Positions 9,325-17,856 of a stretch of 43,539 nucleotides of DNA are shown in pieces; position 1 is the stretch's first letter, and every line of letters starts with the position of its first letter. Both the position numbers and the translations under genes were made by a program. The notes below the pieces were generated by a model. It had not been told where the DNA came from. It did no database searches and saw nothing but the letters and a program-made list of their open reading frames with translations. The DNA is from Pseudobdellovibrionaceae bacterium. Lineage in GTDB: Bacteria > Bdellovibrionota > Bdellovibrionia > Bdellovibrionales > JAMPXM01. The stretch spans positions 1-43,539 of the forward strand of contig JAMPXM010000004.1 in assembly GCA_023701225.1 (NCBI GenBank). The letters run 5' to 3'.

Positions 9325-11433
9325 TCACCAAACGTGCGCCTTCACCTGATTCTGTAGACGCACGATCACGTTTGCGTCACCAACATTGCGTAAATACAGG
9401 TCCACATCGACGGGCGTTGGCTTGAGCGCTAAGAATGTCTTGAAACTCGCATCCAGGAGGCGCGTCCACGCAAAGTCGGTTTCCGTCGTGCGACGTTGTG
9501 GCTTGCGGGTCGCGAAGCGTAAGGCTTGTGCGGGCTTCAGAGACTTCCGCAAACCCAGCGCGACCAAGCGCAGATCCGCATCCGCGTTTGAAATCCAAAT
9601 TCGCATCTCCGCGATTTGCTCAGCGCTTGGATCGGCCTTCAGAAATTTCTCCAGTAAAGACTCGGCCACTTTTTGCAGACGGGTCCGGTAGGACGTCGGC
9701 AGTTGGGCTGGCTCACGGCCGAAGTAAGTGATCAACTCCAGAATCTCGCTGGCGGATCTTGGTTCGCTGAGCGCTTCCATGACAAACGCAAGATCCGTAG
9801 ACACTCCCGTCAGTCTCTGCCGATATTGGTTAATCTGCGCGACACTCGGCCTCAGCGCCAGGAACATATCCATGTGCTGAGCGGCGAAAATACGCATTGA
9901 CTGCGTGTAGGCGTCGGCCTCCGCGCGCCGGTCATCGCGGTAGAGGTTGAGCAGTTTCAAAAAGTCCTGAGCACTTGTAATTTTGGGTGCAACCAACTCC
10001 AGTAGACGAATTTCGGGCTCAATCATTCTGACCAAACGACGGAACTCATTCACTTCATCCACGGTCGGCTCAAGTCGCGCAAAGACGTCGACATATTCCA
10101 TCAAATACCGACGTATCCTCAGCTGTTCGCGACCCGGCGACACAGTGCCTTTGGGAGAAAACCCCACCAGGGTCAGAAACTCGGAGGCCGAACGCGTCTC
10201 CATCGACGCTTGCGTTACGATCGTGAAGTCGAGGGCGGGCGAACTTAACCGTGCACGGAACAAATTGATTTGCGCTGCCGTTGGACGCAATGAGAGGAAC
10301 AGTCGGACACGCGAAGAGAGAAACCGAGTCACCTTATTGACGTAAAACTCCGGCCGTGGCTCCGGATAGTCGAAATCCGTCAAGCGTAAGAACTCACCCG
10401 CATCACGCGTGTGTCGCAAAGCCCGTTCCTTGAGGTGGAAAAGTTCATCATCATTGTGCATCCACTGCGCGAGCCGTCGGATATCTTCGATGGTCGGTTT
10501 CAGAGAAAAAAAGTGGTCCAATGACGAACGGACACCGAAGTGCACCCACTCCGCTTTTTCCGATGATCCCGGCGGAACTCTCCGCATGTAGTCCGCCGGC
10601 GTTCCCGCCTCGACCAAACGCTGATAGAATGCGAGAAGATAGGGGCTGCGCGTATAAATCAATTCTCGTAAACGCGCCTGGCTCTCTGCCGGAAACACTG
10701 GCAGTAAATGGAGACGTGACATCATTTCCGTTATCAGCACGTCGGAGTCCACGATCCGGTCGCGCCATGACTGACCAAATACTGGATCCGACAAGATCCA
10801 CGGACCATGCAGATCCAGGAGTGGCCCCACGTAAGCACCGTCTCCTTTGAACAACGCCGCGGAAATTAGTTTTCTTGTCATAGCCAGCGACCGCGAGTCG
10901 AGCGCATCCGGCGCATCCATATGGCCTGCTATCCAAAGCGGCCAATGACGGACCAGGACCGATTCATCGATCACGACACCCACGCGGTTGAATGCGGCTT
11001 TGACCTGGCTCTGCCACTCTCTGATCGACAGACGCTCGGGATTCCGCGCGATCGCGCTCGCGACTTCGATATCGGCTTCCGAGAACCATTTAAGCTTGAA
11101 GATCTCACTCCATGTCGCACCACGAGCGCGCCCAGAGAGCTTGAGACTCATCGCCAACAAAGCGAGGTCCCCTTTTGAAAAGCGACCTTCGAGCCGCGAA
11201 CTCCTACCCGGTGCAAGCGCTGTCTCCAGCTGTTCCCATCGCGCACCCGATCCCTCGCTCGCCAAGTCGAGCGACATGTGGGGACCACTTGAGCCCGCCA
11301 CTATGGGCGCCACTATGGGCGCCACCATGAATGCCCCACTGACCCCAATCCACGCCGCCGCGACCGCAAGACCTGCAGAACAACGAAGCTTCGATTGGAA
11401 GGCGCTGAAGAGCGCGATCAGGTGGGCACGCAT
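9325..11433 (-). CDS. Exported protein with six ~72-residue repeats, unknown function
   Basis: I do not recognise this 702-aa protein. The N-terminus has a basic start and one hydrophobic stretch (about residues 18-47), a signal peptide or membrane anchor, so the rest is probably periplasmic or surface-located. From about residue 300 to the end there are six copies of a repeat anchored on F-x-L-x-P-T/S, with the Pro at 313, 384, 456, 529, 602 and 672 (spacing 70-73). Several copies add a QIN-x-x-R-like helix and R-S-A-S-E-F/I-L-x-L. Residues 80-300 look helical and less repetitive. The composition suggests an all-helical solenoid. The gene is single, convergent with trmFO and divergent from the pilin genes. 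The start at 11433 has only a weak Shine-Dalgarno. Confidence 0.8.
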   Translation of the reverse strand: MRAHLIALFSAFQSKLRCSAGLAVAAAWIGVSGAFMVAPIVAPIVAGSSGPHMSLDLASEGSGARWEQLETALAPGRSSRLEGRFSKGDLALLAMSLKLSGRARGATWSEIFKLKWFSEADIEVASAIARNPERLSIREWQSQVKAAFNRVGVVIDESVLVRHWPLWIAGHMDAPDALDSRSLAMTRKLISAALFKGDGAYVGPLLDLHGPWILSDPVFGQSWRDRIVDSDVLITEMMSRLHLLPVFPAESQARLRELIYTRSPYLLAFYQRLVEAGTPADYMRRVPPGSSEKAEWVHFGVRSSLDHFFSLKPTIEDIRRLAQWMHNDDELFHLKERALRHTRDAGEFLRLTDFDYPEPRPEFYVNKVTRFLSSRVRLFLSLRPTAAQINLFRARLSSPALDFTIVTQASMETRSASEFLTLVGFSPKGTVSPGREQLRIRRYLMEYVDVFARLEPTVDEVNEFRRLVRMIEPEIRLLELVAPKITSAQDFLKLLNLYRDDRRAEADAYTQSMRIFAAQHMDMFLALRPSVAQINQYRQRLTGVSTDLAFVMEALSEPRSASEILELITYFGREPAQLPTSYRTRLQKVAESLLEKFLKADPSAEQIAEMRIWISNADADLRLVALGLRKSLKPAQALRFATRKPQRRTTETDFAWTRLLDASFKTFLALKPTPVDVDLYLRNVGDANVIVRLQNQVKAHVW
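11296..11331 (+). repeat. 12-bp tandem repeat inside the repeat-protein gene
   Basis: CGCCACTATGGG occurs in perfect tandem at 11296-11307 and 11308-11319, with a decayed third copy at 11320-11331. On the minus strand it encodes the repeated VAPI of the hydrophobic N-terminal segment (residues about 37-46). The period keeps the reading frame. Confidence 0.8.
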
Positions 11434-11827
11434 AGCGTCTCAGAATTGCACCCGCAGTGCCAACCGGGCGACTCCTGCTGGTGACATAACCATATGATAT
11501 TATGTGGCTTTCTTTTTTTACCTTACCCATCTCAAAACCCTCCTCTGTCGACGCCTTCGACAGGCGAAATGCGAAAAACGGCGCGATCATCCCTCATCCC
11601 GTCAGACGTCCCTTCAGACGGCGGTCCTAAAAACGTTGAGCGCTCCAGCATTCTAACTAAGTTTATTTAAACTATCCCCGCCTCCCGAAATGGTGCGAAT
11701 TCTCATTGCGACATACCTCGCGTGCATCGACGTCCCTGTCCGAGACGTTGATTCCGCGAATTGTGGATTGATTGCTAAAGCGCGCATCAATAGGGGCCGA
11801 TGAATTAGGTTAGACGTGGAGCGTGTT
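11434..11827 (+). promoter_or_regulatory. Divergent intergenic region with a sigma-28-like promoter
   Basis: This gene-free stretch lies between the divergent repeat-protein and pilin genes and is richer in A+T than its surroundings (notably 11490-11520 and 11655-11672). At 11776-11779 is TAAA (in CTAAAG) and at 11796-11803 GCCGATGA, close to the sigma-28/FliA consensus TAAA-N15-GCCGATAA but with a 16-base spacer. It would start transcription near 11810, just upstream of the pilin start at 11828. A perfect seven-base inverted repeat CTGTCGA/TCGACAG lies at 11545-11563. On the minus strand GGAGGG sits before an ATG at 11530, but that frame runs across the next gene and looks like chance. Confidence 0.3.
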
Positions 11828-14800
11828 GTGGCAAACTCAAGAGTGTTCGGAACCGTACGTACTGGCGGATTCTCGATCGTCGAATTAATGATCGTCGTCG
11901 GCATTTCGAGCATCGTTCTGATGTCGATGACGACTGCGATCAGCATCATGTACTCCATGCAGGCACAGCAAACCCTGGTGTTCACCCGCAACGAAGTCGC
12001 CGCGCGAATTCGAATGCTAGCCTTGACTCCAGGAGCTTTGGAAAACTCGGCGATTCTCACCAATAACCTGGGGGAGAATGGCGTTTTGCCGGCCGTGGGT
12101 CCGGCGGTGCGCTTCACGCGCTTTGATCGATTGTTGAAATGTCATCCGTCGTTCACGGATCCCGCACAGACCGGTTGCGATCGGTCCGACATGGACGATC
12201 CGAATAGAGGAAATTTTGTTTATATTTCGGACCGAAATTCCACCGATCCGAATTTAGCTCTCGCCGGTGAGTATATTCACTATACGACAAAAGGAACGCG
12301 TTGCTCGCAGCAGGAGGCGCAAAATCCGGGTGATTGCCCAATTTTTGCCCGAGCGTGGGCGGAGCCGTACTGTTTGAATTTCGCGTCGACTTGCAACAAA
12401 GCAATGAGCATTTCGATTCGCTATTCTGTCGGTGTTCGTTCCGACTACGTGGGTTCGGTCCAACGTCTGCCAACGACTCTGGAGGCCGAGGTGATCGTGC
12501 CTCTCCAAAAGGGCATTCAGATCACGCGGGTCTTGGACCAAGACAACAATGCGCTGATCCCCAACGCTCGCGGCATCTATGGTGTTCAGAAGTATTACGG
12601 GTACCCGGACCAGTCCGGAAATCCGCGCGCCCTGCGATTCGAAGTTTTGGTCGGAAACCCGACCGGCTTGCAAAACATCCGCATGCAGATGCGTGCCTTG
12701 ACCGGGCCAAGTGCCAGTACGATAGATGACTTGACCGTGCCGCCCAGCTTGATGAGTGCAGATTGGACCGACGTTCCGAATCCCGACAACCTCTCTCAGC
12801 CGTGGGTGATCCCGTTGGTCAATGCCGCCCAGAACCAGCTGTTTAACTTCGGAACCGTCAACACGATCAAAGGGTTCATCATCGGTGCGCGCTACGATCT
12901 ACCGAACGACGATTTGAGCAAGCGCCGAAACCTTTACTATATGAATTCCACCGGTACAGGCTTGCTGCCGCCGTTGAATTTTAAGTCCGGCGTTTACCAG
13001 TTTCGTGTCGTCGCCCTGGACACCGGAAATAACATCGTTGAGTCGACCAACTATGCCACGGTCAGAATATTTCCGAGACCCCAAATGTATCTTTCGTCGA
13101 CGACTCCGATTCCGGCCACCATCTATCGGAACTGCGCAGCCGATGCATCGACACTGACCTTATCGATTCTCGCAGGAGATGACGAAGAGCTGGTGTCGAG
13201 TTCCTACGAGGTAACAGCAGCCGACGGAACCATCGTAGGGAGTGGGGAGACGACATTCTCAGGTACGACGGGCTCCTTTCAGTTGACCTTTGACAAAAGT
13301 AAGGGCGCAGGAACCTACCGAGTGAACCTGATCGCAAAGAATCGAAGCTCCGGCCGCATCGTCCGTGGCTTCGTGATTCCCGATACGACGACCTCCAACT
13401 TACCGGCCACGTTGGTTCTCAATGAAGTGGTTCCAATCACGGATTTGCTCAGCAATCCAACCAAGGTTCGCGTAGGTTCAACTGCGGTCGCGACTTACAG
13501 TTTGTCGACTGGAAACTGCTGCACGCAAGAGCCAAGAGCCCGCTGGACTTTTCCCAATGTACCTGAAGTCGGAAACGTTCCGATGTTGAGCGCCAGCTCG
13601 CCGAACGAAGAACTCACCTGCTCCAATTTGGCGAATGGAACGCGGTCTTGTTCTGTGAATACGACAATCAACGGACTGATCGAAGGACCAGCCTCGGCAG
13701 CTCCGGACATTTCCGTCGAGCTCAGCTTCAGCGGCTCTACAGAGGCGGCTTGCCAAGTTTCTAATTCAGCGACGGTGAAATACATTCCGGTGGTCCGCAT
13801 TCCTGGCATTCAGTTCGTTTCCTCCGAGTCGCTTTGGGCCTTTGCTCCCGCCGCGACAAGCACGTCTCTGAAGTCGATGGAGCGCATCGTGCGTATCCAA
13901 GCTGACTTTCCTCCTGCCGATGATCCGGTGACGGTCAGCATTCTGAAACCGGATTCTTCTCCCATTTGTTCCAACATTACGTTCGCGGCAGGGACGAGTG
14001 TAAATCCCGTGATCCAGACCTGCACGATTCCCTCTGGCTATCAAGGGGACATGATCCTGGCGCGAAGTTCGTCGAACATCAAAACGTCAGCGGACGCTCC
14101 AGCGCCCGGTTGGCGCGCGCTCCTTGTGGACGGAAAACTTCAACATCGCGTTTGTAACGCAAACATTGGGAGCTCCAGCGGACCCTTCCCGTCCGTGTAC
14201 ACGGTACCGACATCCCTTCCGATGCTCAATTCTCCCTGGGGTCTGGATGGCAGTGGAAACCAAAAGACGACAAACGACGCCGGGCGGTGGTTTGGAGGCG
14301 CGACACATTCACTCCGGTGCTGGGATTCATGGGATTATACCACGGGGACGACTCGATATACTTTCTATAATCCGAATAACAAGCAGGATGGAGCCTACAC
14401 GATTGACGCTTACAACGCGACGAGACCGAGTACGTGGTACGCCAACATAGATTTAATCATGAGTTTTCCGACTTTTTTCTTTCCTTACAATGGCGGTTCC
14501 GCCCCCGATTTCACCGCTCGCAACGTACCCTACATATTTGTCGTCATGAAAGGCGCCCCCGATGGAGCGGTCTATCGCTATACGCAAGGGACATCGTCTA
14601 GCGAGACCACCGCGATACCTTGGATGAACGTGACATCCAGTTATTGTAACGGCTCGACATCCATGACGAACACACAGATCTATACGAATCAGTTCCGAGG
14701 CTTCGATACGTCCACGCAGACGATGAAGGCTTTGAATTCGGCGAGAATGCCGAGAAATTTGATGAGCTCCTATTATTCTTATGCGTTCGTTTGTACGTAT

Positions 14801-14836
14801 GGCCGCTACAGTCCATTTGGCGAAGGCGCTCCATGA
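11828..14836 (+). CDS. Giant type IV prepilin-like (minor pilin) protein
   Basis: This 1002-aa protein starts with a class III (prepilin) signal: leader MANSRVFGTVRTGG, a cleavage site G|F, then FSIVELMIVVG with Glu at mature position 5, and a hydrophobic helix to about residue 40. The long remainder is rich in Ser/Thr/Gly/Asn and Cys and reads as beta-rich modules; the region near residues 420-560 resembles Ig-like folds (TYRVNLIAKN, ATLVLNE). Minor pilins are usually 150-300 residues, so the exposed part probably forms a tip structure such as an adhesin. GTG 11828 has GGAG six bases upstream; GTG 11816 is an alternative without one. It overlaps the next gene by ATGA. No pilus assembly genes lie nearby. 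The target and role are unknown. Confidence 0.8.
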   Translation: MANSRVFGTVRTGGFSIVELMIVVGISSIVLMSMTTAISIMYSMQAQQTLVFTRNEVAARIRMLALTPGALENSAILTNNLGENGVLPAVGPAVRFTRFDRLLKCHPSFTDPAQTGCDRSDMDDPNRGNFVYISDRNSTDPNLALAGEYIHYTTKGTRCSQQEAQNPGDCPIFARAWAEPYCLNFASTCNKAMSISIRYSVGVRSDYVGSVQRLPTTLEAEVIVPLQKGIQITRVLDQDNNALIPNARGIYGVQKYYGYPDQSGNPRALRFEVLVGNPTGLQNIRMQMRALTGPSASTIDDLTVPPSLMSADWTDVPNPDNLSQPWVIPLVNAAQNQLFNFGTVNTIKGFIIGARYDLPNDDLSKRRNLYYMNSTGTGLLPPLNFKSGVYQFRVVALDTGNNIVESTNYATVRIFPRPQMYLSSTTPIPATIYRNCAADASTLTLSILAGDDEELVSSSYEVTAADGTIVGSGETTFSGTTGSFQLTFDKSKGAGTYRVNLIAKNRSSGRIVRGFVIPDTTTSNLPATLVLNEVVPITDLLSNPTKVRVGSTAVATYSLSTGNCCTQEPRARWTFPNVPEVGNVPMLSASSPNEELTCSNLANGTRSCSVNTTINGLIEGPASAAPDISVELSFSGSTEAACQVSNSATVKYIPVVRIPGIQFVSSESLWAFAPAATSTSLKSMERIVRIQADFPPADDPVTVSILKPDSSPICSNITFAAGTSVNPVIQTCTIPSGYQGDMILARSSSNIKTSADAPAPGWRALLVDGKLQHRVCNANIGSSSGPFPSVYTVPTSLPMLNSPWGLDGSGNQKTTNDAGRWFGGATHSLRCWDSWDYTTGTTRYTFYNPNNKQDGAYTIDAYNATRPSTWYANIDLIMSFPTFFFPYNGGSAPDFTARNVPYIFVVMKGAPDGAVYRYTQGTSSSETTAIPWMNVTSSYCNGSTSMTNTQIYTNQFRGFDTSTQTMKALNSARMPRNLMSSYYSYAFVCTYGRYSPFGEGAP

Positions 14837-15495
14837 GCGGGCAGCGCGGAGCGGGCCTGATTCACTTGATCGTTGCCATCGCGGGCACGGCCTTGCTTCT
14901 TCAGTTGTTTTTGTTGGGCATGATGCAAAACGAAGTCGAGAACACGCGGCGCGATCAGGTGCGCGAGATGAAAATTCACCTCTTAAATTCGATGTTGGAC
15001 ACTATTCGTGACGAGATGACGTTACGCAATTCCAGAATCGACGTGAACTCCATTCTGATCGATTGCATGGGCGGAACTGGGACCTGCGACGAAAGGCAGC
15101 TGTACGATTTTGTGATTTATTCTCCCACTCCCCCGTATATTTTTAGCGGGCAATGGCCACCGGCGCCGCCCGGACTTAAAATATTGATGGGTGGATTCTC
15201 CGCCAACAAGCAATTTTATAACGTTGGCGGTGGACGCTGCATCGACGGAGCGACAGAGATGACGGCGTCTTGCCCATTGCAAGGTATCGGGCGCATTCGT
15301 CCCTTGTGCGGCGGAACTTTCGATACGCCCGCACTGAGCATACCTGGTGGCGCGGTCTGTGCGACGCCAGCGACCGGTTTTGAGGTTGTCATTGGTGTCG
15401 CGTCGTACTGGAACGGCACGATCACTTTCAATCCCGACACACTGGTGGGCGACCAAAGAGTGTTCCGTGTCAGCGCCCGCACTTTTCTGAATTAG
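14833..15495 (+). CDS. Prepilin-like protein lacking Glu5
   Basis: Exported pilin-like protein (220 aa). The start MSGQRG|AGLIHLIVAIAG has a prepilin-type cleavage site and hydrophobic helix, but the usual Glu at mature position 5 is His. Loss of Glu5 is known in GspK/PilX-type minor pilins that sit at or near the fibre tip. The C-terminal part contains several Cys residues. The ATG overlaps the giant pilin stop (ATGA, 14833-14836), so the two should be made together and may form one tip complex. This is an inference from gene order. The frame also opens at 14791, but that would put the prepilin site too far inside. Confidence 0.7.
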   Translation: MSGQRGAGLIHLIVAIAGTALLLQLFLLGMMQNEVENTRRDQVREMKIHLLNSMLDTIRDEMTLRNSRIDVNSILIDCMGGTGTCDERQLYDFVIYSPTPPYIFSGQWPPAPPGLKILMGGFSANKQFYNVGGGRCIDGATEMTASCPLQGIGRIRPLCGGTFDTPALSIPGGAVCATPATGFEVVIGVASYWNGTITFNPDTLVGDQRVFRVSARTFLN

Positions 15496-15516: not shown

Positions 15517-15578
15517 CACTGTCGATACCACTGTCGATACCGGTCAAAATCGCTGTGTAGTTACACCACTGTCGATAC
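15517..15578 (+). repeat. 12-bp direct repeat, three perfect copies
   Basis: CACTGTCGATAC occurs at 15517-15528, 15529-15540 (in tandem) and 15567-15578. It lies in the 201-base gap between the second pilin gene and the fusion gene, so it may be a regulatory or purely slippage-derived repeat. Confidence 0.85.
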
Positions 15579-15696
15579 CTTAGACATGTAAAACGCGAAA
15601 AACGGCGATGTCACTTTTGTGGCAGTGGTGGGGAGACGCGAGCCGTGATTTGGTGTGAGCTGAACAGGCTTTGGTCTTGCACTTCAGCACAAAAAG

Positions 15697-17856
15697 ATGA
15701 GGTCGTCCCCACTTCTGCGCTTCGCGCTCATTTCAATGTTCCTGTCCACTTCGGCACTCGCGGCTCAGAGGTCGCCATCGCCATCAATATCACGATCGCC
15801 TTCGGAAGCAACGACATGGCGATGGCTACGAAAGACAACCACACAAAACGCGACACAAGAGGCGGCACCAGATCTGGAAGGAGTCGTGCGTGTCGCTGCC
15901 TTTGACGTCGATGAAACTCTGCGTTTTAGCTCCGGCAAAAAGCACTATCCGGAATCCATCAATGAGCAAATTCTGCCCGACGACGTCGCTCCCCGAATCC
16001 GTCAGCTTCGCGAAGCTGGATATCTGATTGCACTATTCTCCAATCAGAGTGGCGCGGTCTTACCACGAGCCATCGAGGCACGCCGGCAGATACTCTTCGA
16101 CTTAGCAAATCGTCTCCACCAACAAAACGCACCGGTCGACTATGTCGATATCGCCGACGGTCTTCACCCGTGGCGGAGCAAGCCGAATCCCAGTATGTGG
16201 GATCGCTTGGAACAAGATCTCGCGGCCCAAGGGCTCCGCGTCGACCGGCTCGGCTCCTTCGTAGTCGGAGATGCGGGTTATCGAGAGACGGAACGAAACG
16301 CGACGAATGGAACCCCTGGACAAGATCATGACAACTTCGATCGCGAATTCGCTCGCGCCCGAGGTCTCGCCTTTTTCCATGCCGATTCCTTCTTTGCGCG
16401 TACGTCCACGCCTCCCGGCTTGGACCCCATGAAATGGCGTGCATGGCAGCAAGAAACCGCGCGTGTGACTCGCGCTGTTCTCGAAAAAATGCAGGAATTG
16501 GAAGCGGCCGTCGAGCGTGTCGCCCGATCCACTCAAGGCGTCTCACCACTCAATCCATCAGGAGACGCCAACGCACGCGCATTAGGCATCACACTCGATG
16601 ACCTGAACCGCGCTGAGTTTCGAAGTTTTTTGAAAATGACCGAACAGATCGAACAGGGCTTGGAGCTGATCGCGCGCTCGAACTCCAACGCCGAGGAGTT
16701 CGCCTGGATCCAATCTCTGCTGGAAAAATGCCGCATCTCCCGTGCGAGTTACATTCGAGTCGAAGAACTTTACGGAACACCAAAGGACAATCAAAGGTAC
16801 AACGCGTTCCGAGACGTGATTCTTTCCTACGACCGCCTGTTGAGCGCGATGGGCGCGACGGCGCAACCGACACCTGAGACCACGCTGTGGCGCCGTTTTC
16901 TCACCGCCGTTCAATTCCAAATCCGAAGTGTTTGGATGCTGACCAAGCTCGGTATGACCAGTATGGGTCCCCTTCTCCGGCTCTGGACGGGCATTTTCTT
17001 AACGCCAAACACAGGACCCGGCCATACTCCGATCACCACGGCAACGATCGACCTTTTTGAGCGATGGGGACGCGCCTCCGGGCTCAATGTCGACATCGAA
17101 GGTCGGGATCGAATTCCCAAAGCAGGACCTCGCGAAATCAATATCTACCTGCCGAACCACATCGACGCGAATTTGGATTTTTATGTCCTCTCCCAACTTG
17201 AGATGGAAAATTTCGTCACCGTTGGCGCTTTGAATATCAAAGGCACGGCGTTTTTCAGCTTCGCGACGTCCGGAATTTTCGAACCTTTATTGAAGCAGAT
17301 CATGAAAAACGATCACTTCTTTTTGGTCGGCCAGGGTGAACGCGTGCTCGACCGGATGGTGGAGGCGTTCCACAAGGGCAAATCACGTCACTTGTTGTTT
17401 TTCTCGCAAGGCATGGTCAGTCTTGGTTTTCAAGAAACGAATCCGGTACGCGACGGCCTGATGCGCATGATCGTGCGTCTGCGCGACGAAGGCTTCCGAG
17501 TGAACCTGGTGCCCGTCATCATGCCCGATAACAATGTCTATTTGTCGACCGGCGAGTCCCTACAGCTACGTTCCGACACAGGCCCGCAGATGAGTGCGTC
17601 TGTCGGCACAGTCATTACCGATGAGATGCTCACTCAGATCACAGCACAGGGACGCTTGGACGCGATTCCGGATTGGCTCCGTGCCCATTGGGTCACCGGT
17701 TTACGCAATGATCGCGACCGCGTCGCTGGCCTCCGGCGCTGGAGCCATGGAATGGAAGAGTTCGAGCGCCGCGGCTGGGTCCCCGCGAGTCAGGACGCGC
17801 CTCCGTCGCACCCGCGGAATTGCGAAACTCTGTTTGGGCCGACGCGTACGCGATAA
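15697..17856 (+). CDS. Exported fusion: PNKP-like HAD phosphatase + PlsC-like acyltransferase
   Basis: Two-domain protein (719 aa) with an N-terminal signal peptide (hydrophobic core residues about 6-20, site ALA|AQ near 22). Residues about 64-235 look like the HAD phosphatase of polynucleotide 3'-phosphatases: FDVDETL (Asp70, Asp72), FSNQSG (115-119), KPNPSMW (162-168), VVGDAGYRETER (Asp192) and the PNKP-like FDREFARARGLAFFHADSFF. A helical linker follows (about 245-430). Residues about 445-660 resemble lysophospholipid acyltransferases: NHIDANLD (487-494) at the NHx4D motif, with one extra residue before the Asp, and FFSQGM (568-573) where FPEGTR is expected, so Glu is replaced by Gln. Whether either domain is active is unclear. 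ATG 15697 has a poor Shine-Dalgarno. Confidence 0.75.
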   Translation: MRSSPLLRFALISMFLSTSALAAQRSPSPSISRSPSEATTWRWLRKTTTQNATQEAAPDLEGVVRVAAFDVDETLRFSSGKKHYPESINEQILPDDVAPRIRQLREAGYLIALFSNQSGAVLPRAIEARRQILFDLANRLHQQNAPVDYVDIADGLHPWRSKPNPSMWDRLEQDLAAQGLRVDRLGSFVVGDAGYRETERNATNGTPGQDHDNFDREFARARGLAFFHADSFFARTSTPPGLDPMKWRAWQQETARVTRAVLEKMQELEAAVERVARSTQGVSPLNPSGDANARALGITLDDLNRAEFRSFLKMTEQIEQGLELIARSNSNAEEFAWIQSLLEKCRISRASYIRVEELYGTPKDNQRYNAFRDVILSYDRLLSAMGATAQPTPETTLWRRFLTAVQFQIRSVWMLTKLGMTSMGPLLRLWTGIFLTPNTGPGHTPITTATIDLFERWGRASGLNVDIEGRDRIPKAGPREINIYLPNHIDANLDFYVLSQLEMENFVTVGALNIKGTAFFSFATSGIFEPLLKQIMKNDHFFLVGQGERVLDRMVEAFHKGKSRHLLFFSQGMVSLGFQETNPVRDGLMRMIVRLRDEGFRVNLVPVIMPDNNVYLSTGESLQLRSDTGPQMSASVGTVITDEMLTQITAQGRLDAIPDWLRAHWVTGLRNDRDRVAGLRRWSHGMEEFERRGWVPASQDAPPSHPRNCETLFGPTRTR

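Follow-up and report, generated by a model that had tools for sequence, protein, structure and literature searches.

Two adjoining genes of a Pseudobdellovibrionaceae bacterium, one for a giant prepilin (hereafter the giant) and one for a much smaller prepilin-like protein (the partner), probably encode a dedicated complex at the tip of a type 4 filament, that is, of a type IV pilus or a type II pseudopilus. They lie in a 43,539-nucleotide (nt) stretch of DNA, here called the window, which is contig C177 of a draft genome (G000; 3.1 Mb, 317 contigs, 82.8% complete). This reading draws on sequence comparison and analogy, and it is based on the way in which Glu5, the glutamate at position 5 after the predicted cut, is split between the two proteins, on a size that fits the filament tip, and on the precedent of PilA and PilC in Streptococcus sanguinis. 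A dedicated two-protein tip adhesin had been suggested in a first-pass annotation of this DNA; a tip complex is still the best reading, given the Glu5 split and the precedent, but the equal dosing of the two proteins that went with the suggestion has been abandoned.

The Glu5 split between giant and partner

The features of the pair are as follows (aa, amino acids; the vertical bar in motifs marks the predicted cut):

11828..14836, plus strand: giant prepilin, 1002 aa, GTG start, 988 aa after the predicted cut, Glu5 present
11870..12517, plus strand: pilin base of the giant, a hydrophobic helix and a Cys-rich body, delimited by BLASTP to a paralogue on contig C283 of the same genome and by profile A3
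12518..14833, plus strand: distal part of the giant, about 770 aa, beta-rich, kept at full length in 8 genomes
13064..13459, plus strand: beta-sandwich segment, 132 aa modelled alone, Ig-like at modest confidence
14833..14836, plus strand: ATGA stop/start overlap, from the reading frames; absent in the sister genome
14833..15495, plus strand: small prepilin-like partner, 220 aa, predicted cut G|AGLIH, no Glu5; orthologue alignment A10, profile A6

The reading frame of the giant starts with a GTG at 11828, preceded 6 nt upstream by a GGAG seen by eye (an alternative GTG start lies at 11816), and stops at 14836. The protein carries a class III prepilin signal, namely a short leader ending in Gly, a hydrophobic stretch and Glu at +5, and its mature N-terminus after the Gly reads FSIVELMIVVGIS. 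Against Pfam N_methyl this N-terminus reaches 21.9 bits in a six-frame search, above the cut-off of 21.2, and 16.5 bits, below the cut-off, when the giant is searched as a whole protein. The earlier description of a protein of about 1000 residues with a prepilin N-terminus was thus confirmed, and relatives lacking such an N-terminus were not met: all ten giants compared have a Glu5 prepilin start (the window, its sister genome G008, the C283 paralogue, G043, G073, G074, G077, G349, and two in G354). Beyond its base the giant continues for about 770 aa, as a modular pilin would. BLASTP against the C283 paralogue covers the base only (residues 14-206, 29% identity, E 3e-13); a profile search also aligned the distal parts of the C283 giant, which is itself one of the seven rows of that profile. 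A PDB sequence search with the giant yielded nothing beyond the N-terminal helices of Geopilin and PilA (best E 0.0018).

The partner begins at the ATG at 14833 and stops at 15495, its predicted cut site being QRG|AGLIHLIVAIAG, which places His at position 5. The first-pass annotation took this His in place of Glu5 as a trait of tip pilins. The loss of Glu5 has held up, since none of the nine partners has Glu there; the His itself has not, as the residues found are H, Y, N, L, I, I, S, L and S. His5 was accordingly rejected as a special residue, and the conserved trait of the partner, judged from these nine proteins, is the absence of Glu5. The Gly before the hydrophobic stretch is invariant in all nine. 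Because profile A6 matches ordinary Glu5 pilins through about 160 residues of the body (E 1.4e-16 in G054; E 1.1e-8 on contig C95 of the window's own genome), by homology the partner is a pilin. No T2SSK or PilX_N domain was found in it by Pfam scan at E up to 1, and no PDB sequence matched better than E 0.093; matches to Pfam Col_cuticle_N (E 0.043) and to an NCBIfam sigma factor (E 0.13) were taken as chance. With 220 aa against 1002, the partner is smaller than its companion pilin, the opposite of the GspK type.

Distribution of the pair and coupling of its genes

The search for the pair in other Bdellovibrionota that the first-pass annotation had called for recovered a full-length giant with a Glu5-less partner in 8 of 368 genomes of the phylum. 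Profile A7, built from seven rows including the C283 giant, matched 12 genomes at E <= 1e-8, with two candidates scored per genome, so that further paralogues may be missed; eight were matched over nearly the whole length, and G054, G135, G221 and G336, with partial matches at this threshold, were left out of the count. A Glu5-less prepilin-like gene comes next after the giant in all eight, its product measuring about 220-252 aa with starts chosen by the analyst. The sister genome, of the same genus, keeps the pair at 64% (giant) and 70% (partner) identity; outside the genus, identity to the window proteins is 32-39% for giants and 34-39% for partners, and two of the eight genomes (G349 and G354) belong to another family of the phylum. 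In G354 (L112, 7278-14811), tandem giants and tandem third genes, described below, surround a single partner gene.

Among 143 genomes of the class, the six best matches to profile A6 are the partners of the six giant-bearing members, followed in seventh place by that of the diverged C283 pair; the profile was built from those seven partners, and the search therefore shows only that it brought up no further close relatives. Profile A3 matched 63 of the 143 at E <= 0.001, seven of them below 1e-20; the other 56 mostly match through the N-terminal helix alone and are not counted as relatives. Trees of giants and partners agree at supported forks, which is consistent with co-inheritance; with the partner tree supported at only 2 of 6 forks, this is not proven. 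Since the N-terminus exceeds the N_methyl cut-off in the six-frame search and the pair is conserved in 8 of 368 genomes, the pair is, on present comparisons, more than a product of chance.

The coordinates, frames and ATGA overlap previously reported for the window are exact. Giant and partner frames overlap in 8 of 9 pairs, by 1-16 nt: 4 nt in the window, 16 nt on C283, 1 nt in G043, 8 nt in G349, 13 nt in each of G073, G074 and G077, and about 11 nt in G354, where the lengths given for C283, G073, G074, G077 and G354 depend on start codons chosen by the analyst. In the sister genome a 40-nt gap takes the place of the overlap. Coupled translation is plausible for the eight overlapping pairs. 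Equal production, which had been read from the ATGA, was rejected, because of the gap in the sister genome and the presence of two giants per single partner in G354.

The proposed tip complex, its filament and competing explanations

In the proposed mechanism, giant and partner would both enter the inner membrane, where the one prepilin peptidase found in the genome would cleave them behind the Gly. Without Glu5, the partner could occupy only the starting position of the filament, above which no other subunit sits, by analogy with GspK, PilX and S. sanguinis PilA; neither GspK nor PilX has Glu5, and both have been assigned to the top of the filament (PMC5207764, PMC7541494). The giant, with Glu5 present, would dock through its pilin base beside or just below the partner, and its beta-rich part of about 770 residues would jut out as a bulky cap; it has been argued that a chain of this size fits best at the filament tip (PMC8179133, PMC5207764). 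Further minor and then major pilins would join below and push the cap outward. On a type IV pilus the cap would arrive at the surface and serve there for contact or adhesion, in cells without a detected PilY1; if the filament is a type II pseudopilus, the cap would remain periplasmic and make contact with the substrate or the secretin. What the sequences themselves show is the two prepilin-like signals, the joint conservation of the pair over long evolutionary distances, the strict division of Glu5, another such pair in the same genome, and a third membrane-protein gene, described below, linked to the pair in 6 of 8 genomes.

PilY1 is comparable in size to the giant, and CofB and TcpB are smaller than it. 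The likeness to S. sanguinis PilA and PilC was drawn from published descriptions. The closest tested precedent is this S. sanguinis set, in which a small Glu5-less pilin (PilA) and a large modular Glu5 pilin with an Ig-like module plus a lectin (PilC) are encoded together with PilB (PMC9934059, PMC8179133). Binding of the two is known there and their place at the tip is predicted. PilC also differs in being of about 53 kDa with a recognisable lectin, the giant having no named domain, and the S. sanguinis set has three pilin genes, not two, belongs to a different phylum, and has no counterpart in its description to the third, membrane-protein gene of most relatives of the pair. Like GspK or PilX with GspI-GspJ or PilV-PilW, the Glu5-less subunit is encoded after another pilin and is the proposed first subunit; unlike GspK, which is bulky itself, it is small, and the bulk is on the Glu5 pilin (PMC5207764, PMC7541494). 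The KilLMN proteins of the Myxococcus Kil (Tad) pilus likewise form several alternative tip sets per genome, with one subunit much enlarged, but they are Tad-type pilins in threes, and the signal sequences here are of the T4a/type II kind (PMC12075869). The PilY1 tip adhesin shares the presumed tip place (PMC7541494), and its domain PF05567 is absent from the seven giants scanned with Pfam. CofB and TcpB of T4b pili are large Glu5 pilins with extra beta domains at the tip, each described as the single minor pilin of its own system and with no Glu5-less partner in those descriptions (PMC5207764, PMC8179133). Modular pilins are widespread, the largest mentioned having 860 aa with 12 repeats (PMC8179133).

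As for the machine that the complex would serve, a type IV pilus is given about an even chance, a type II pseudopilus a clearly smaller one, and some other machine is improbable. The retraction ATPase PilT exceeds the cut-off in all eight pair-bearing genomes, each of which also has a prepilin peptidase, and GspK does so in six and is weak in the other two. PilY1 was found in none of the eight, a negative with a weak control, as 14 control genomes gave no clear positive (one archaeon, below the cut-off). A type IV pilus is slightly preferred because the giant is so large, all eight genomes have PilT and no PilY1 was detected; the type II reading comes mainly from a single operon in G043.

In six of the eight genomes (G043, G073, G074, G077, G349 and G354) the partner is directly followed by a third gene, present in two copies in G354, whose product is a small membrane protein (about 155-170 aa). 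No such gene directly follows the pair in the loci of the window and its sister, that is, in the window's genus. Weaker relatives occur elsewhere (best E 3.8e-15, in G000), and two of those in the window's own genome, on C72 and C77, have no recognisable pilins adjoining. In G043 (L092) the order on one strand is gspH, gspI, gspJ, gspK, giant, partner, third gene, gspL, gspM and gspN, where Pfam identifies GspK (T2SSK_1st, E 3.5e-9) and a PilM-type GspL (E 4.4e-20) and the other gsp names were assigned by position and by eye. This arrangement, with a type II GspK in most of the eight genomes, is what favours taking the pair for an accessory type II pseudopilus tip, an oversized analogue of the GspJ-GspK top that would select substrate or push it through the secretin, in the periplasm only. 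Such a role is possible but on the doubtful side. The trio lies inside only one of the five type II operons read (L032, L092, L125, L126 and L127): in the window genome the operon (C311, L032) has its full set of genes but not the pair, in G349 and G354 gspK and gspL are direct neighbours, and in G073 the gene after gspK is unrelated. Moreover, the G043 trio stands about 250-300 nt from gspK and gspL, whereas the H-I, I-J, J-K, L-M and M-N junctions overlap by 4 nt, and because of these wide flanking gaps it may be an inserted cassette. The occurrence of PilT in every one of the eight genomes also counts against this reading.

A second alternative concerns the distal part, which would be the receptor-binding head of a surface adhesin for prey. 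Ig-like beta modules had been described here in the first-pass annotation. The 132-aa segment, modelled from two sequences, came out as a seven-stranded sandwich (pLDDT 62, core 60-83), and its structural neighbours include FlgD, carbohydrate-binding modules and GbpA (best Z 7.3; Z 5.4 for Vibrio cholerae GbpA, 2xwx), where Z below 8 is common for such models. Foldseek returned one match at E <= 0.001, the FlgD hook cap (TM 0.38). S. sanguinis PilC has an Ig-like module that is reported to superpose on this GbpA entry (PMC9934059), and the shared likeness, at Z values of this order, is suggestive only. No Pfam domain exceeds the cut-off in seven giants. The ten comparisons among five segments of the giant profile all stayed at a probability of 2% or less, so that repeated Ig modules detectable by sequence were rejected. 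Ig-like modules in the giant therefore remain weakly supported, by one modelled segment. The large beta-rich head and the middling resemblance of this module to carbohydrate-binding modules and GbpA would suit a prey adhesin, and predatory relatives use variable tips (Kil pilus, PMC12075869). However, conservation over nine giants (C283 left out) is 0.43-0.65 per 50-residue block with peaks at 151-300 and 701-750; by this measure the distal part is not a hypervariable head, and conservation about equal to that of the pilin base argues against a rapidly varying prey receptor. The Pfam scans of the seven giants gave no ligand-binding signature, and most genomes of the phylum lack the protein altogether. 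A prey adhesin is possible, and about as doubtful as the type II tip.

Several observations weigh against the tip complex, or against its surface location. The type II operon of G043 would place the cap in the periplasm. AlphaFold2 of the whole mature giant, run on a two-row alignment, gave a pLDDT of 30, too low to show a pilin head, and of the structure prediction advised for the distal region only the 132-aa segment was informative. The absence of PilY1 was only weakly tested, given the control set. Finally, the set is rare: it occurs in 8 of 368 genomes, and genus g11, with many genomes among those searched, has no member among the 12 matched at E <= 1e-8. As far as these genomes tell, basic pilus functions in the phylum therefore do not depend on the pair, and neither life nor predation there can require it in general.

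HAMP domains commonly relay signals across membranes. The third protein has two membrane segments (by eye, from the alignment) and a weakly HAMP-like tail, and its gene adjoins the pair in most of the genomes; giant and partner might on these grounds be membrane-anchored periplasmic proteins that never polymerise and form a membrane sensor with it, which is unlikely, as the HAMP matches are below the cut-off and confined to two of five proteins scanned (E 0.00045 and 0.069), the third gene is not adjacent in the window's genus, and the strict retention of Glu5 in giants suggests docking into a filament. Little more probable is a bolder extension of the tip complex, in which giant, starter and, outside the window's genus, the HAMP-like protein would make up a self-contained Bdellovibrionota tip cassette that reads the state of the tip on retraction and signals inward, as a stand-in for the missing PilY1 and one of several exchangeable tips within a genome.

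As far as the literature searched goes, how type 4 filaments are capped without PilY1 in predatory Bdellovibrionota is not settled, and the pair is a compact, conserved candidate. In that literature, which excluded most subscription papers and all preprints, no account was found of a conserved giant that comes with a Glu5-less pilin and a linked membrane protein in Bdellovibrionota. The pair also separates bulk from Glu5 loss, which are joined in GspK, and so offers a natural test of which of the two defines the first subunit.

Other pilin sets and neighbouring sequence

In the C283 pair (L031, 524-3642, minus strand), the Glu5 pilin measures about 820-830 aa, and the protein encoded next has 221 aa and carries Asn5. 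When 193 reading frames from 20 loci of the window's genome were roughly scanned, 20 Glu5 pilins were found; for three of them (on C177, C283 and C200) a prepilin-like gene lacking Glu5 lies no more than 300 nt away on the same strand. Three is a lower bound, since neither GspK nor the C95 set was picked up. Ordinary membrane proteins also fit the Glu5-less pattern, and 11 of its 14 matches had no Glu5 pilin beside them; the argument therefore depends on adjacency and conservation and not on the pattern. On C200 (L040, 854-2726), only 4 nt separate the gene of a 431-aa Glu5 pilin from a downstream gene for a Glu5-less prepilin-like protein of 190 aa; the two are possibly a third tip pair.

On C61 (L036, 2508-6646) an 866-aa Glu5-less prepilin-like protein (G|SILVTVVLLAG) precedes a PilV-like protein of 161 aa and a PilW-like one of 351 aa; here, unlike in the window pair, the giant is the Glu5-less member. 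Another large pilin type, of 685-778 aa, occurs in G037 (L114, 5018-8971) and on C257 (L033) and C265 (L034) of the window's genome, the G037 protein being flanked on one side by a prepilin-like protein of 321 aa that lacks Glu5 and on the other by a Glu5 pilin of 310 aa.

In the window itself, the 13-mer GCGAAAAACGGCG flanks the pair at 11571-11583 and 15595-15607 (2 matches against 0.30 expected in shuffles) and was not seen in the other loci of the same genome that were scanned. Three copies of CACTGTCGATACC stand just downstream of the partner, at 15517-15579 (0.02 expected). The neighbouring reading frames encode, at 9325-11433 on the minus strand, a 702-aa protein that seems, by eye, to contain several diverged repeats of about 90-100 aa and, at 15697-17856, a 719-aa protein which, judged by eye, combines a HAD-type phosphatase with an acyltransferase-like part.

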